Assembly: GCF_001562255.1 (NCBI RefSeq) | Contig: NZ_CP014301.1 | Location: forward strand, 2,852,001-2,916,000 | Direction of reading: 5' to 3' | Source of the DNA: Bosea sp. PAMC 26642 | Lineage (GTDB): Bacteria > Pseudomonadota > Alphaproteobacteria > Rhizobiales > Beijerinckiaceae | DNA length: 64,000 nucleotides | Part shown: positions 5,962 to 43,127 of the stretch, piece after piece | How positions within the stretch are numbered: the stretch's first letter is position 1 | Layout of the letters: each line of letters starts with the position of its first letter | The notes under the pieces: generated by a model | The model's input: the letters and a program-made list of their open reading frames with translations, nothing else | The model's database searches: none | What the model was told of the DNA's origin: nothing | Made by a program: the position numbers and the translations under genes

Positions 5962-6183
5962 TCACTCCGCGGCAGTCAGCGTGCGTGTCGGCAGGGGTAC
6001 CTCCCGGCCAAGCTCGGTGGCTGCCTCGATCCAGGACAGGATTGCGTCCTGCACATTGATGAGCGCCTCTTCGGGCGTGTCGCCATCGGACATGCAGCCA
6101 GGCAGATCGGGAACGGTGGCCAAATAGCCACTGCCGTTTGCTCTCGACAGGGGTTCAATCAGAACTCGATGCTCCAATCTCAT
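5962..6183 (-). CDS. HicB-like protein without HicA
   Basis: This 73-aa protein shows the HicB/UPF0150 fold: a short beta strand start, then YLATVPDLPGCMSDGDTPEEALINVQDAILSWI at about 20-52. HicB is usually the antitoxin of the HicA mRNA interferase. No HicA-like sequence (a short dsRBD-like protein with a catalytic His) is visible on either side, and there is no C-terminal DNA-binding domain. Its ATG overlaps the stop of a 44-aa ORF (ATGA), so it is the last cistron of the ruv-linked tail. It could be an orphan antitoxin. Confidence 0.75.
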   Translation of the reverse strand: MRLEHRVLIEPLSRANGSGYLATVPDLPGCMSDGDTPEEALINVQDAILSWIEAATELGREVPLPTRTLTAAE

Positions 6184-6314
6184 GATACGTCTCCAAGAGG
6201 CAAAGCGCTGACTTCTTTCAGCGTATCGGAATCCAGCTTAACCGTCTGAACCGAACATGCGCTTACAAAATCGGGGAAAATAGATTTAAATCTCAATAGA
6301 TTATCTATCGCCAT
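6180..6314 (-). CDS. Small unknown ORF between nuclease and HicB
   Basis: A 44-codon frame beginning [13 protein letters not shown]. Its ATG (6312-6314) lies inside the last codons of the nuclease gene and its TGA overlaps the HicB-like ATG as ATGA. Such double overlap suggests translational coupling. The ribosome-binding site is weak (AATAAGAAA). No family is recognised; it is not HicA-like. It may be chance, so confidence is low. Confidence 0.35.
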   Translation of the reverse strand: MAIDNLLRFKSIFPDFVSACSVQTVKLDSDTLKEVSALPLGDVS

Positions 6315-7195
6315 TTTCTTATTTCAACAAGCGTATCTGTATCAGATTCGATATCGCCATCACGGTAAATTGCAATCCTGCAAGCCCTTTTCTTTTCAAG
6401 TCTTTCCCAATTTAGGGGCGCGCCAAATTTAAGTTCGATCTGGGATTTTTTTGCAAACAGGCAATCAAAAATGGCCTCGTTCTGCTCCTTGTTGTCACAA
6501 TCAAGATAGACCTCAGCGCGCACTTTTCCACCTTGCGAGAAGCTAGTTCCGTACTTGAAAAGACGAGAATTCTGAGACGAGAAGCTATACCAATTTTGCG
6601 GCTGCGCAGCTCTTGCATTTGTGAACTTGTGCTTCTCCCTAAGTTCATCGATCAAATATTGAAAATACTGCTTATATTTCTCTCTCGTCTCGGAAATTGC
6701 CGGACTGATAGCTCCATCTCCAAGGCTCTGCCGAACCGGCTCCGAAACAAGATCAAGTAAAAATGCAGGCTTTGAATTTTCAATTCTAACAACAGAAGCC
6801 TCTAACGCATAGAATAATAAGCCGTCTTTAAAATTACTATTAAGAAAATCGATTGCAGATTTATGTTCTGGTCGCAATTTTTCGGCAATCCAAATTATGA
6901 CTGATGCATTTAGCATAGATGCATATGTAATAATTTGGCCCAAATGTCGATGATCTGTACTCCCGAATTGATTTTCAATTATCACTCTTTTATTTGTAGC
7001 TATCTCATTGGCAACAATATCAGCTGAAAAATCGCCAGCAGAGACCTCTATACCATCAAGTTCTAGCTCCATTCCAATCTGGTTGCCTAGCTTATCGAGG
7101 TTTTGTGCCAGCCAAGGGGTAAAATCAGTAGCCTCTCCGCTCCATAGTGATTTGAGCGGAATTCTTTCAAGAACGCCAAGCTCTGGTCCGCTCAT
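6305..7195 (-). CDS. DUF4268-type PD-(D/E)XK nuclease-like protein
   Basis: A 296-aa protein. The N-terminal half contains a PD-(D/E)XK core: Asp59 in DFSADIVA, then Glu74-x-Gln76 in VIIENQFG, and the helix GQIITYA (Gln87...Tyr91). The C-terminal half (about 170-290, [14 protein letters not shown] to the end) resembles DUF4268, found in nucleases of defence or restriction loci. The gene is clearly richer in A+T than its neighbours, indicating acquisition. Its ATG overlaps the ruvB stop (ATGA), so it is translated behind ruvB. Substrate unknown. Confidence 0.75.
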
Positions 7196-38148: not shown

Positions 38149-39837
38149 ATGGATTACCAGGAAGGCGCAGGGCCGCTAGACCAAAGCGCCAGCCTTGGGG
38201 GGCCATCCGTGACAGCCAGCGCCTACGACACCGATCTCGACCGCAACCCGGCGAATTTCCAGCCGCTGACGCCGCTGCCCTTTCTGGAGCGCGCCGCGAG
38301 CGTCTTCCCCGAGCACATTGCCATCATCCACGGCCCGCTGCGCCGCAGCTATGCCGAGTTCTATGCCCGCTCGCGGCGCCTGGCCTCGGCGCTGGCGAAG
38401 CACGGCATCGGCAGGAACGACACCGTCGCCGCCATGCTGCCCAATACGCCGGCTATGCTCGAATGCCATTACGGCGTGCCGATGTGCGGCGCCGTGCTCA
38501 ACACGCTGAACACCAGGCTCGACGCGGCGATAATCGCCTTCTCGCTCGACCATGGGCAGGCCAAGGCCGTCATCATCGACCGCGAGTTCGCCAAGACGAT
38601 GCGCGAGGCGCTGGCGCTCTGCGAGGCCAGGCCCCTCGTCATCGATTACGACGACCCTGTCTATGACGGCCCCGGCGACCGCCTCGGCAACATCGAATAC
38701 GAGGATTTCATCGCTGGGGGAGATCCCGACTTCGCCTGGGCGATGCCCTCAGACGAATGGGACGCGATCGCGCTGAACTACACCTCCGGCACCACCGGCG
38801 ACCCCAAGGGCGTGGTCTATCACCATCGCGGCGCCAATCTGCTGGCGACCTCCAACGTCCTGACCGGCGGCATGGCGAGGCACCCGGTCTATCTCTGGAC
38901 GCTGCCGATGTTCCACTGCAATGGCTGGTGCTTCCCCTGGACGATCTCGCTGCTGGCGGGCACCCATGTCTGCCTGCGCCAGGTCCGGGCCGGGGCGATG
39001 TACGACGCGCTCGCCGACCATGGCGTCACGCATATGTGCGGTGCGCCGATCGTGATGTCGACGCTGCTCAACGCGACTGCCGGGGAAAAGCGCGACTTCA
39101 ACCAGAAAGTCGCCTTCTTCACCGCCGCCGCCCCGCCGCCCGAGGCCGTGCTCGGCGCGATGAAGCAGGCCGGCTTCGAGGTGACGCATCTCTACGGCCT
39201 GACCGAAGTTTACGGACCCGCCGTCGTCAACGAATGGAACCGCGACTGGGACGCGCTGCCGCCCCCCGAGCAGGCCGCGCTGAAGGCCCGCCAGGGCGTG
39301 CGCTACCCGGCGCTCGAAGGGCTCGACGTGATTGACCCCGACACGATGCAACCCGTCCCCCGCGACGGCGCCACGCTCGGCGAGGTGATGATGCGCGGCA
39401 ATGTCGTGATGAAGGGCTATCTGGGGAACCCGAAATCGACGAAAGCCGCCTTCGAGGGCGGCTGGTTCCACACCGGCGATCTCGGCGTGCGCTATCCCGA
39501 CGGCTACATCCAGCTCAAGGACCGCTCCAAGGACATCATCATCTCGGGCGGCGAGAACATCTCCTCGATCGAGGTCGAGGACGCGCTCTACAAGCATCCG
39601 GCCGTGCAGGCCGCCGCCGTGGTCGCGAAACCCGACGAGAAATGGGGCGAAACCCCTTGCGCCTTCATCGAGCTCAAGCCCGGAAAGACGGCGACGGAGG
39701 AAGAGATCATCGCCTGGTGCAAGGGCCTGCTGGCCTCGTTCAAATGCCCGCGCACGGTGGTCTTCACCGAGGTGCCGAAAACCTCGACGGGGAAGATCCA
39801 GAAGTTCAGGCTGCGGGAGATGGCGCGGGGGTTGTGA
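38149..39837 (+). CDS. Acyl-CoA synthetase (AMP-forming), medium-chain type
   Basis: A 562-aa ANL enzyme with LNYTSGTTGDPKGVVYHHRG, LYGLTEVYGP, the hinge LKDRSKDIIISGGENISSIEVED and catalytic Lys in KTSTGKIQKFRLRE. Overall it matches the AlkK/DmdB-like branch activating medium-chain or substituted acids. The ATG at 38149 directly follows AAAAAAGG; GTG 38209 (TASAYDTD), behind a G-run, may be the true start. Confidence 0.9.
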   Translation: MDYQEGAGPLDQSASLGGPSVTASAYDTDLDRNPANFQPLTPLPFLERAASVFPEHIAIIHGPLRRSYAEFYARSRRLASALAKHGIGRNDTVAAMLPNTPAMLECHYGVPMCGAVLNTLNTRLDAAIIAFSLDHGQAKAVIIDREFAKTMREALALCEARPLVIDYDDPVYDGPGDRLGNIEYEDFIAGGDPDFAWAMPSDEWDAIALNYTSGTTGDPKGVVYHHRGANLLATSNVLTGGMARHPVYLWTLPMFHCNGWCFPWTISLLAGTHVCLRQVRAGAMYDALADHGVTHMCGAPIVMSTLLNATAGEKRDFNQKVAFFTAAAPPPEAVLGAMKQAGFEVTHLYGLTEVYGPAVVNEWNRDWDALPPPEQAALKARQGVRYPALEGLDVIDPDTMQPVPRDGATLGEVMMRGNVVMKGYLGNPKSTKAAFEGGWFHTGDLGVRYPDGYIQLKDRSKDIIISGGENISSIEVEDALYKHPAVQAAAVVAKPDEKWGETPCAFIELKPGKTATEEEIIAWCKGLLASFKCPRTVVFTEVPKTSTGKIQKFRLREMARGL

Positions 39838-39849
39838 GCGGGATCGAGA

Positions 39850-39873
39850 TTCGGCTCGGGGTGAGGAGCCGAA
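39850..39873. terminator. Hairpin after the acyl-CoA synthetase
   Basis: TTCGGCTC (39850-39857) and GAGCCGAA (39866-39873) form an 8-bp perfect stem with an 8-nt loop, 13 bp after the stop. There is no T-run. It marks the junction to the accessory island. Confidence 0.4.
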
Positions 39874-39968
39874 GTTAAGCCACTTCAAGATCTGCAGAAG
39901 CGGTTAGGCTTTAGCCGTGCGTTTGGAGAAGTTCGCTTCAATACCTTTTGATTCCATTTTTCACAATC

Positions 39969-40973
39969 CTACTCCGTTTTGTCCGCTTCCCATCTCTTTA
40001 GTTGGTTTCCGTTCTCATTCCACCAGCGCTGTAATCTGAGAGCGGCTTCCAAAGCTTCTGCAACATCGTCCACTTGGTCAACAAACGCCCTCTGTGTCTC
40101 GAGGCGAGGGGTATCGATCACAATGCCTAGAGAGTGCCCGGCTCGCCGAAGATAAGCACCAGTGTCCACAAGGTTCTGAGGAGCGACAAGGGAGTCCACC
40201 ATTGCAGCGCGACCCGTCAACATGATCTTTACCGACGCGGAGCGTGCCGAACTATCCCAGCATTGTAGCGACATCCTGGGGCGCGCGACCTCTGCGTGCT
40301 GGACCAACGTTCGAGGGACATCGAAATAAACCGTCCGTGATGCGTCCGGCCTGACGCCATCAGCGTTAGGATTGTGCTTCATAGCCAGATCGGGAAAGCG
40401 ATCAACAATTAGCTGACGAATTCCCGCGAAGAAGTCGATCGCGCCAGCATTAGGCATTGGTTCATACGGCGCCTCGGCTTGCCGGATCGCCGATTCAAGA
40501 AGCACGCGATCATCACTGCCAACATGCTCTAGGAAATCCTCGTAGGCAATGCGGACATCGAACATCTTGCCGGACCGGCTGCTGGCCAGATAGCGTGCTG
40601 GCGCAAGAAGGACCGAATAGGCCTCGCGACCGGAGCCTCGATAGGCCGCAACGCTCCTTTGATAGCGTTGGGGCTGGCCATGTCCGTCTCTGGTGATACT
40701 GTAAGCAGCGTCTATCTTGTTCTCGATTAACAGTAACGGACCGCCTCGAAAATCCATTACGATATCGATAGAACCTGTTCCGGCGACGTGACGCACCTGC
40801 GCTTTTACATCGCAAACGCCAAGAATACCTTGGACACACGCCCCTCTCGAAAAATGAGCGGCGACCTCCGAGCGGGATCGAAGCAGCCTTACGAACAATG
40901 CGTCGGTGTCTCGCTCATAAGTTCGCAGAGCGGTCTTCAACCGACCGGAACCGCTAATGAACGACGCCTTCAT
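39969..40973 (-). CDS. PD-(D/E)XK nuclease-like protein, island operon gene 3
   Basis: A 334-aa protein. Residues about 65-110 give a PD-(D/E)XK core: Asp70 in GSIDIVMDF, Glu84-x-Lys86 in LLIENKIDA, then a Gln/Tyr-containing helix (GQPQRYQRSVAAYRG). The rest (about 165-330) resembles no family I can name. I start at ATG 40973 because it overlaps the stop of the upstream gene as ATGA; GTG 40988 is in frame. It probably cleaves DNA. Last of three coupled genes in a region less G+C-rich than its surroundings, suggesting horizontal gain. Confidence 0.72.
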   Translation of the reverse strand: MKASFISGSGRLKTALRTYERDTDALFVRLLRSRSEVAAHFSRGACVQGILGVCDVKAQVRHVAGTGSIDIVMDFRGGPLLLIENKIDAAYSITRDGHGQPQRYQRSVAAYRGSGREAYSVLLAPARYLASSRSGKMFDVRIAYEDFLEHVGSDDRVLLESAIRQAEAPYEPMPNAGAIDFFAGIRQLIVDRFPDLAMKHNPNADGVRPDASRTVYFDVPRTLVQHAEVARPRMSLQCWDSSARSASVKIMLTGRAAMVDSLVAPQNLVDTGAYLRRAGHSLGIVIDTPRLETQRAFVDQVDDVAEALEAALRLQRWWNENGNQLKRWEADKTE

Positions 40974-42280
40974 GACCAGTTTTCCCACTCTTTGCGCAAA
41001 TTGCGATGTACGACGCCAACCTGATCAGTTCGAAAGCTCGCCCAAGCCCGACCGATTGCAATAATACGAACCGTGTCGGCACGTAGGCGCTCGGGTAGCC
41101 CGCTAGGCCCATCGACATGCAGGGCCGCCTCGATCGCCGCAGCAACTGATCCCGGCGGCAAAAACGATTCCAAACGCCTATCTTCCAGCCCCGCCATTTG
41201 GGGATCGAGCACCACTTCTTCGCATGGGCGAAGGAGTACTTCCCGGCACGTTCCTGCAGTTACAGGAAGCCAAACGACATAGTTGTGCTCACCCTGATCG
41301 GGCTCCAACTCGGCGGGGAACCGTAGGCCAAAGGGCCCGTCGCTGCGCAGCGAAAGATTTCCCTCCATAAATGGCACGTTCACCCTATGCCATTTCCCAG
41401 CGAGCTCGATCTCGACCTCATCATACAGCTCATCGAGATACAGCCAAGGTTTACGGATATGCAGCGGCCCGTCCGGGCCGATCAACTCTAGCACACTGCG
41501 AATTTCGAATAGGGCTGCGGGAGAGTGACGGTCATCAGCTGGGCCAACGGCTAGACGCACCTCACGCAGAATCGTCAAGTCAACGGGGATAGATTGATTT
41601 GTAATATGGACAGTAACAATGCACTGCATCGTAATAGATTTAGGCTCAGTAAATAAGACAATGGATGGAATGAGAGGAAAATCTTCCACATGCTCCAACC
41701 AATTTGCCAGCGGACCTCTAAGCAGCGAACTTGATGACGGAAAGATCTGTTCTGCTGCGAGGTCATATCGTCCTGGGAGAACGGTCATGCACTCAATGTG
41801 CGCATGGAGCTTTTCGACACGTGCGACCTGACAAGCGAGAGTCTGAAGCGTCTCCGATAACATGCTCCAGAAGACATTTAGTTCCGGTTCGACTTCGCCT
41901 GCTCTAACCGCGTCATCAAGACTGGAGCCACGGAATGCCAGAAGCAAAATATCGTCCTCGGGTTCACAAATGGCGTTTGCAATTTTCTTAGCGTATTCTG
42001 CAATCTTGTTCGGCTTCTTGCATTGGCGAAGGTCCCTGCGGCGTTGAGCTGGATTTTCATGCTCATGCCAGATCTCACGACAGATTTCTGTAATACCTTT
42101 CCTACCTCGCCTATTGCCGTGTTCCGTTATAAGTTTATCCAGATTATATGCGGCGCGTTCGCATTCGCCGGACCTGAAATTGATCCTCTTCTGCGCAATA
42201 ACCTCACGTAGTCTTTTTGCTTCGCGCTCACGAGTTTCTTGAGTTTCGGGTCGATCAGGAAAATCGGCGCCATTCTTCAT
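40970..42280 (-). CDS. Unknown 436-aa protein, island operon gene 2
   Basis: I do not recognise this protein. The N-terminal 110 residues are charged and helical (REREAKRLREVIAQKRINF; EYAKKIANAICEPEDD); the middle is alpha/beta with hydrophobic strands (SIVLFTEPKSITMQCIVTVHI), and the C-terminal part is strand-rich (EVEIELAGKWHRVNVPF) with a short helical end. No transmembrane segment, Walker motif or nuclease motif is evident. The ATG at 42280 has AAGGAG six bases ahead, so the frame open to 42922 is an artefact. It overlaps both neighbours by ATGA, so all three products are likely made in fixed proportion. Confidence 0.7.
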   Translation of the reverse strand: MKNGADFPDRPETQETREREAKRLREVIAQKRINFRSGECERAAYNLDKLITEHGNRRGRKGITEICREIWHEHENPAQRRRDLRQCKKPNKIAEYAKKIANAICEPEDDILLLAFRGSSLDDAVRAGEVEPELNVFWSMLSETLQTLACQVARVEKLHAHIECMTVLPGRYDLAAEQIFPSSSSLLRGPLANWLEHVEDFPLIPSIVLFTEPKSITMQCIVTVHITNQSIPVDLTILREVRLAVGPADDRHSPAALFEIRSVLELIGPDGPLHIRKPWLYLDELYDEVEIELAGKWHRVNVPFMEGNLSLRSDGPFGLRFPAELEPDQGEHNYVVWLPVTAGTCREVLLRPCEEVVLDPQMAGLEDRRLESFLPPGSVAAAIEAALHVDGPSGLPERLRADTVRIIAIGRAWASFRTDQVGVVHRNLRKEWENWS

Positions 42281-42609
42281 ATTGCGCTCCTTTTGGCGCG
42301 CGTGGCATACTGGCGCCGATATCGCCTTCCCGCTCGTCCCACAGGACGCAGGACTGTAACGACTCCCTCTCGACCCAAGACGGCGGCAAGCGCCCGAACT
42401 CGCTTGACTGCATCCGGGTCGAAACCTTCGGCAATGAGCATCATTGCAGTGTCGCCGCTCATGCGTATCGTCACAGCGCCTTCTCCGGCATGATGCGCGA
42501 TGTCGCCATGTTCGATGAGAAGGGAAGCCAGATTCAACGGGATGCTTCGTGCACCACAGCGTCGAAGGGCATGTCGGGTAAATTGGGGATTTGGATTTGC
42601 GAGGTTCAC
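42277..42609 (-). CDS. Small DUF4258-like protein, island operon gene 1
   Basis: A 110-aa basic protein. The stretch FTRHALRRCGARSIPLNLASLLIEHGD resembles the HA..R...R.I....V...G start of DUF4258 proteins, and VVTVLRP near the end fits their last strand; DUF4258 is related to the RelE/barnase-like RNase folds of toxins. This is a pattern resemblance only. The start is GTG 42609, with AAGGAG seven bases upstream; the ATG at 42639 has no SD. It heads the operon. Confidence 0.6.
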   Translation of the reverse strand: MNLANPNPQFTRHALRRCGARSIPLNLASLLIEHGDIAHHAGEGAVTIRMSGDTAMMLIAEGFDPDAVKRVRALAAVLGREGVVTVLRPVGRAGRRYRRQYATRAKRSAI

Positions 42610-42721
42610 GGTGTGTCTCCTTGCTGACCCCTTGATCATCGCACGTGCTGTGACGCTCGTTCTTCAGAAATAGTAATTTACCTTGTCTTTTTTTCGGAAG
42701 TAAAAATTGTAATTTTAGCCC

Positions 42722-42814
42722 ATGAAAGATAGCAAAAAGGCCGCGACATTTCGGCTTGAAGCGAGGCTGGAAGCTGAACTGGCCCTTCGCGATACGGAGA
42801 TTTTCTCCGCGTAG
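42722..42814 (+). pseudogene. Possible truncated ribbon-helix-helix (CopG-like) gene
   Basis: A 30-codon frame beginning MKDSKKAATFRLEARLEAEL looks like the start of a CopG/Arc-type antitoxin or regulator, then ends at TAG after a short unrelated tail. It lies divergently upstream of the island operon. The 329-bp gap it sits in (42610-42938) is A+T-rich near 42660-42720 (probable operon promoter) and shows nothing else. Confidence 0.35.
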
Positions 42815-42938
42815 CCATGTCAAACTCCCCGGACCTCTCCACCGTCTCACCCCATACGAAAAACCGGCCCCTCTCGGGACCGGCCGATTCTCACGAAACG
42901 CAATGGAAAATCCGGGCCGCATCAGCCCGGTGACGCCC

Positions 42939-43127
42939 TCAATGCAAGGTCTGGCCGGGTACGGCCTGCCTCACCCTCTCGATCTCCTCCTTCAGCAGCA
43001 GCTTCTTTCGCTTCATCTCGACCACGTTCAGATCGTCCGATGAGGGGCTGGCCACGGCCTGGGCAATGGCTGCCTCGAGTTGGCGGTGTTTGCGTTCGAG
43101 TTCGACGAGATGGGTCTGCAGCGACAT
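42939..43127 (-). CDS. DUF465/YdcH-family protein (leftward)
   Basis: A 62-aa coiled-coil protein of the YdcH/DUF465 family: LVELERKHRQLEAAIAQAV...DLNVVEMKRKKLLLKEEIERVR. The repeated KRKKLLLKEEI is the family signature. Role unknown. GGAGGA precedes ATG 43127; the frame open to 43229 is extension. A second DUF465 gene lies divergently at 43341. Confidence 0.88.
   Translation of the reverse strand: MSLQTHLVELERKHRQLEAAIAQAVASPSSDDLNVVEMKRKKLLLKEEIERVRQAVPGQTLH

Follow-up and report, generated by a model that had tools for sequence, protein, structure and literature searches.

What is the function of a compact operon that joins a small RNase-like protein, a large protein outside the known families and a putative nuclease, and that lies between core genes of Bosea sp. 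PAMC 26642? The operon occupies positions 39969-42609, on the minus strand, of a 64,000-nucleotide stretch of this genome (positions 2,852,001 to 2,916,000 of NZ_CP014301.1), hereafter the window. It consists of gene 1 (42277-42609, minus strand, GTG start, 110 amino acids [aa]), encoding a DUF4258-like, RelE/BECR-fold-like small protein, gene 2 (40970-42280, minus strand, 436 aa), encoding a core protein outside known families, and gene 3 (39969-40973, minus strand, 334 aa), encoding a putative PD-(D/E)XK nuclease. A sequence-only reading had seen in it a possible defence or conflict system. Our comparison of relatives of the three genes makes us favour, with some reserve, a modular antiphage (or anti-mobile-element) system in which a core toxin/sensor pair would be combined with a swappable DNA-damaging effector.

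Conserved core pair and variable third gene

The comparison covered 23 loci (L numbers below): the window, nine found through the nuclease and 13 found through gene 2. The latter (L055, L056, L057, L068-L071, L118 and L124-L128; three weak matches were dropped) were retrieved with gene-2 profiles, and in 12 of them a gene-1 relative adjoins gene 2, which answers the question raised by the sequence-only reading whether homologues of the middle gene keep this neighbour. L069 is devoid of a gene-1 relative, and the relative in L070 is divided between two open reading frames (ORFs). The gene-1 relatives of L055, L056 and L057, chosen by motif for the profile, were found as well by tblastn with gene 1 of the window (5e-33, 1e-6 and 2e-4, respectively). 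The nuclease profile retrieved 30 loci in named genomes, nine of which show gene 1, gene 2 and the nuclease in that order; these nine complete loci match by construction, because the scoring profiles contain their sequences or those of close kin. Gene 2 was first seen with a profile of other sequences at L003, L006, L007, L016 and L020 and via BLASTP at the remainder, and the more distant members of its family were recognised initially by their place next to the nuclease and afterwards with profiles and BLASTP. In 14 of the 17 loci listed, both junctions are tight, with a start position that overlaps the prior stop or lies within ~30 bp of it. The exceptions are L006, where 90 bp precede the third gene, and L056 and L124, for which the range tested contained no start for that gene. 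Genes 1 and 2 evidently form a conserved core.

What follows this core varies. In the set of 13 retrieved with gene-2 profiles, a nuclease of the window type comes third in two loci (L068 and L070, with a gap of ~100 bp in the latter), and other putative PD-(D/E)XK proteins of two families in three. One of these families is represented by the 188-aa third protein of L057, with weak matches to PD-(D/E)XK-type models (VRR_NUC, 0.025); the other is common to L071 and L124, whose proteins are 40% identical and keep the D, E and K residues in the three sequences compared, with no support from Pfam. In L055 the third gene encodes a LEM-3-like GIY-YIG protein (Pfam 1.5e-6, above the cut-off; PADLOC PD-T4-3, 1.6e-11). 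The third proteins of L056 and L125 are 65% identical to each other, the gene lying ~270 bp downstream in L056, and we take them to be glycosylase-like from the motifs VIGxQPGGD and PHPxxAW, a library-unconfirmed assignment; no uracil-DNA glycosylase (UDG) family was matched in Pfam (E<=1) or in a PDB profile search (E<=10). No DNA-acting third gene was found in four loci (L126, L127, L128 and L069), L069 having instead an HNH gene that matches type IV models ~280 bp upstream of gene 2, and in L118 the contig ends before any third gene is seen. In a tree of 28 gene-2 proteins, those of the window, P0009, L124 and L055 fall into one clade with 100/100 support and three nuclease types, P0009 being scored as a carrier of the window type by its pairing with nuclease P0027, inferred from longest contigs of equal length (8653), and the L071/L124 type requires at least two changes on the same tree. 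The third gene, as judged from these comparisons, is exchanged beside a constant core of genes 1 and 2. The view of the nuclease as part of a fixed unit does not hold. The sequence-only reading had also allowed that a middle protein occurring widely without this nuclease would tell against the defence idea: gene 2 is without it in 11 of the 13 loci (one of these being the unjudgeable one), whereas six of those 11 carry another putative DNA-acting protein in its place.

This pattern bears on two other explanations. Genes 1 and 2 could be nothing more than a toxin-antitoxin addiction pair, by which small islands and prophages are stabilised, with the nucleases as passengers. In favour of this are the nuclease-free core pairs of L126-L128, a prophage copy at L071 and an integrase-like ORF noticed by eye beside L014 and L069. 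Nonetheless, we regard it as improbable, since a putative DNA-acting gene comes next in 8 of the 12 judgeable loci found through gene 2 (two of the eight being unconfirmed), mostly overlapping or within ~30 bp, since gene-3 relatives are under purifying selection and since gene 2 is far bigger than usual antitoxins. The other explanation is a modification-dependent, type IV-like restriction system, where gene 2 would read modified or foreign DNA and recruit the adjacent nuclease or glycosylase, gene 1 being an accessory or regulatory subunit and no toxin. DNA glycosylases are reportedly antiphage enzymes, and the L056/L125 protein, if a real glycosylase, would therefore fit. The nameable third genes are nucleases, the GIY-YIG protein of L055 matches PD-T4-3, and a GIY-YIG defence protein has proved to be a type IV enzyme dependent on 5hmC (PMC12923530). 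Type IV models are also matched by the HNH gene that precedes gene 2 in L069, and gene 1 adjoins a nuclease without gene 2 in L018 and L044. We hold this explanation to be rather unlikely, yet clearly more credible than the addiction pair.

Window-type nucleases occur without gene 2 as well. In the 30 loci found through the nuclease, one (L018) has gene 1 and the nuclease without gene 2, and in 20 the nuclease stands alone in the DNA examined, several of these being distant relatives or lying on short contigs. In L002, L004 and L015, close gene-3 relatives have housekeeping genes as neighbours and lack genes 1 and 2 (by eye, the neighbours are folC and trxA, thiC, and purA; the nuclease of L004 is split in two ORFs), so that a nuclease of this type also travels alone. 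Gene-1 relatives lie directly upstream of gene-3 relatives, with no gene 2 between, in L018 (7447-8681) and L044 (5690-6918), the latter on a plasmid of Aminobacter where WYL and RecB-like genes lie close by. The protein ahead of a nuclease relative at L010 (1683-2753) weakly matches the ABC-three-component CTD1 domain (0.0031) and is possibly another type of partner.

Operon architecture and encoded proteins

The sequence-only reading of the operon itself was accurate in gene lengths, coordinates and junctions: the three minus-strand genes are joined by ATGA stop/start overlaps at 42277-42280 (genes 1 and 2) and 40970-40973 (genes 2 and 3). The good Shine-Dalgarno sites it had noted for the first two genes are AAGGAG sequences on the minus strand at 42617-42622 for gene 1, ahead of its start by 7 bases, and at 42287-42292 for gene 2, ahead of its start by 6 bases and still within the end of gene 1; no AAGGAG-type site was seen before gene 3. 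Ratios of nonsynonymous to synonymous substitution rates (dN/dS) for the relatives of genes 1, 2 and 3 are 0.23, 0.19 and 0.16 in the pair L016/L020, and 0.62 (with very few changes), 0.32 and 0.14 in the pair L008/L011. Because homologues of genes 2 and 3 exist and the L016/L020 ratios are low, the three can be taken as real genes and not as chance ORFs.

In Pfam and NCBIfam the three proteins all stay below the curated cut-offs, and matches in PADLOC and PHROGs are weak and short. No known antiphage model in PADLOC-DB 2.0.0 matches over most of a protein's length, genes 1 and 2 giving no match at E<=1.

In gene 3, the predicted catalytic residues D70, E84 and K86, encoded on the minus strand at 40764-40766, 40722-40724 and 40716-40718 (40716-40766 overall), are shared by all 23 homologues aligned, picked from the best 120 of 209, which are 46-69% identical. 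The D...(D/E)-x-K core named by the sequence-only reading is thus borne out. The catalytic stretch is matched by Pfam PDDEXK_4 (PF14281; E 0.12, under the cut-off) and by PADLOC PDC-S26 (0.0012, 35 of 401 profile positions). The likeness to these nucleases is weak and lies in that stretch, whereas gene 3 has a conserved C-terminal region of its own in the 23 sequences.

Gene 2 matched no family in Pfam, NCBIfam, PHROGs or PADLOC, in line with the earlier remark that the middle protein resembles nothing known, and its predicted fold gave no convincing structural match. The model suggests a helical N-terminal part (residues 14-165), a beta domain (169-339) and a long C-terminal helix (395-435), and a helix-turn-helix is possible. 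The search with gene 2 returned 10 matches including itself, the homologues being 41-51% identical; members of the family range from 436 to ~600 aa, and its subfamilies are 15-22% identical to one another.

An alignment of 22 gene-1 relatives has H13 and T85 invariant and R17, R21, G22, D36, G42 and R96 almost invariant. The window protein matched no Pfam family, PF14076 (DUF4258) included, at E<=1, and so falls short of the curated cut-off; relatives of L068 and L020 score 2.2e-4 and 1.5e-3 against PF14076, both under the cut-off. A profile of the gene-1 family matches a distant small protein of L044 annotated as DUF4258 (4e-9, set size 20000), and the top VIA ranks for the predicted model are RelE, HigB, BrnT, colicin D and CdiA toxins. 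The resemblance to DUF4258 that had been claimed from the sequence persists in this form, as a grouping with DUF4258/BECR-type proteins based on Pfam scores of relatives, the L044 match and the fold model. The model suggests a BECR-type fold for gene 1, and the protein would be an active RNase.

Island, distribution and neighbourhoods

The less G+C-rich island between core genes described by the sequence-only reading is evident: its G+C content is 0.545, whereas same-size stretches average 0.654 (sd 0.032), the lowest values of the window fall there, and Pfam assigns core functions to the eight flanking proteins (two AMP-binding synthetases, TauE, two DUF465, PurE, PurK and S21). Alignments to same-genus genomes place the limits of the insertion at about 39838-42912 (no strand assigned), left flanks stopping at 39824-39842 and right flanks starting at 42850-42978. 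A right-flank match, in some cases partial, was found in all 41 same-genus genomes searched, the own genome included. In 15 of the 16 same-genus genomes compared, the flanks lie 75 bp to 7 kb apart, the shortest distance being that of the congener L109; in the 16th, L096, the right flank alone is visible in the piece examined. Therefore, the operon can be regarded as an arrival in a variable intergenic slot. The slot corresponding to 39842-42850 of the window carries differing cargo among those 15 genomes (L097-L111).

Gene 2 is single-copy in its own genome. Of 61 genomes searched by profile (its own and 60 relatives), its own alone was positive, the 36 others of the genus all being negative, and among 397 genomes of the order the count was likewise 1. 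This makes a housekeeping or DNA-repair operon with no conflict role very improbable: the position of the window copy between purine and acyl-CoA synthetase genes would suit it, whereas occurrence in one of 61 and one of 397 genomes contradicts wide vertical conservation, and the low G+C content, the near-empty site in a congener and the 15-22% identity between gene-2 subfamilies also speak against it.

The neighbours of the relatives give the defence-island part of the sequence-only reading a mixed outcome. They were chosen by eye and scanned with PADLOC at 9 of the 23 loci, without a control set, so that the results are counts and not a statistical enrichment. Strong matches were obtained at L007, L008, L020 (helicases), L069 and L124. 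MzaC, MzaD and MzaE lie directly upstream in L008 (1e-131, 9.7e-16 and 1.2e-69), and MzaE (8.1e-194) and MzaD (4.5e-48) upstream in L124, ~460 bp before the gene-1 relative. An MkoA-like helicase and SbcC/SbcD-like genes are near L007, and an Aga nuclease (7.2e-94), the type IV-like HNH protein and a Prim-Pol protein near L069; the helicases of L020 match DpdF/PsyrT and GajB models unspecifically, and a neighbour of L068 has a weak SduA match (6e-4). No defence matches were found for the neighbours tried at L003, L006 and L071, and the one neighbour of L013 scanned with Pfam belongs to no family. A prophage setting is seen for L071/L113: a phage capsid gene lies ~2.3 kb from L071, whose three genes recur on two viral contigs, in one case with an identical gene 2. 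Some of the loci are hence prophage-borne or have defence genes close by. The window copy, on the other hand, stands outside a defence island between flanks that are housekeeping by Pfam.

Proposed function and relation to known systems

We propose that gene 1 would be a BECR-fold RNase-type toxin (RelE-superfamily-like, DUF4258) and gene 2 a large, antitoxin-like regulator that restrains it and senses infection. Upon recognition of an invader-related signal, gene 2 would free or steer gene 1 to cleave RNA and gene 3 to cleave the invader's DNA, giving the operon an antiphage or conflict function. Gene 3 would be a co-regulated DNA effector, here PD-(D/E)XK and elsewhere other nucleases or perhaps a glycosylase, exchangeable because just a short docking contact or shared regulation is needed. 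Beyond this, it is tempting to speculate, though we would sooner doubt than assert it, that one gene-2 adaptor/sensor family controls a BECR-fold RNase together with an interchangeable DNA-destroying effector, as an undescribed class of conflict system. Equally tentative is the extension that this class embraces three PD-(D/E)XK families, GIY-YIG and perhaps a DNA glycosylase, as a module that would strike RNA and DNA together, the DNA warhead being swapped by recombination while the sensor stays constant.

Effector-swapping defence modules are already known, and in HigBA the small toxin gene likewise comes first. BrnTA is listed with the same order as the window, the small RNase-like gene preceding the larger one. 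RelE/ParE, DUF4258 (PF14076) and BrnTA/HigBA resemble our operon in the gene-1 profile match to the L044 protein and in the model ranking; toxin-antitoxin operons differ in that the partner here has 436 to ~600 aa, belongs to no known antitoxin family and is often followed by a nuclease. PMC11980606 lists DUF4258 with unknown activity and an antitoxin-first order, opposite to that of the window. The same paper describes ptuXYZ, a three-gene defence candidate that, likewise by prediction, combines a putative nuclease, a large partner and a BECR RNase in one operon; its PtuX (DUF262) and PtuY (P-loop ATPase) families, as given there, match neither gene 2 nor gene 3. Mza is a neighbour at L008 and L124, and genes 1-3 themselves match no PADLOC model of Mza. 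CMoRE is presented as a single-component GIY-YIG defence protein; compared with it and with PD-T4-3, the GIY-YIG protein of L055 follows a core pair that has other partners elsewhere.

No description of the operon was found in the literature on DUF4258 (titles and beginnings of abstracts; preprints elsewhere and most subscription papers lay outside the search). What would be new is the core of genes 1 and 2, whereas effector swapping as such is known. If our proposal is correct, this would be a defence system whose central protein is missing from Pfam, NCBIfam, PHROGs and PADLOC models, and library-based finders would miss it because gene 2 matches no searched model. It would also tie a branch of RelE-like proteins of unknown activity, DUF4258, to DNA cleavage against invaders, and effector exchange beside a constant core would allow a direct test with one sensor and several natural warheads.

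Additional observations

Several Rhodobacterales loci carry a fourth small gene (130-143 aa) after the nuclease (L008 8961-9383, L011 6724-7146, L016 4034-4426 and L020 8799-9230); those of L008 and L016 had no Pfam match at the cut-off. A second spot of low G+C content (0.439) lies at 6001-7000 of the window, where a lone 296-aa DUF4268 protein (6305-7195, minus strand; 7.4e-22) shows by eye a PD-(D/E)XK-core-like stretch and has near it a HicB-like antitoxin gene (5962-6183, minus strand; 4.2e-13) and, by eye, RuvB.
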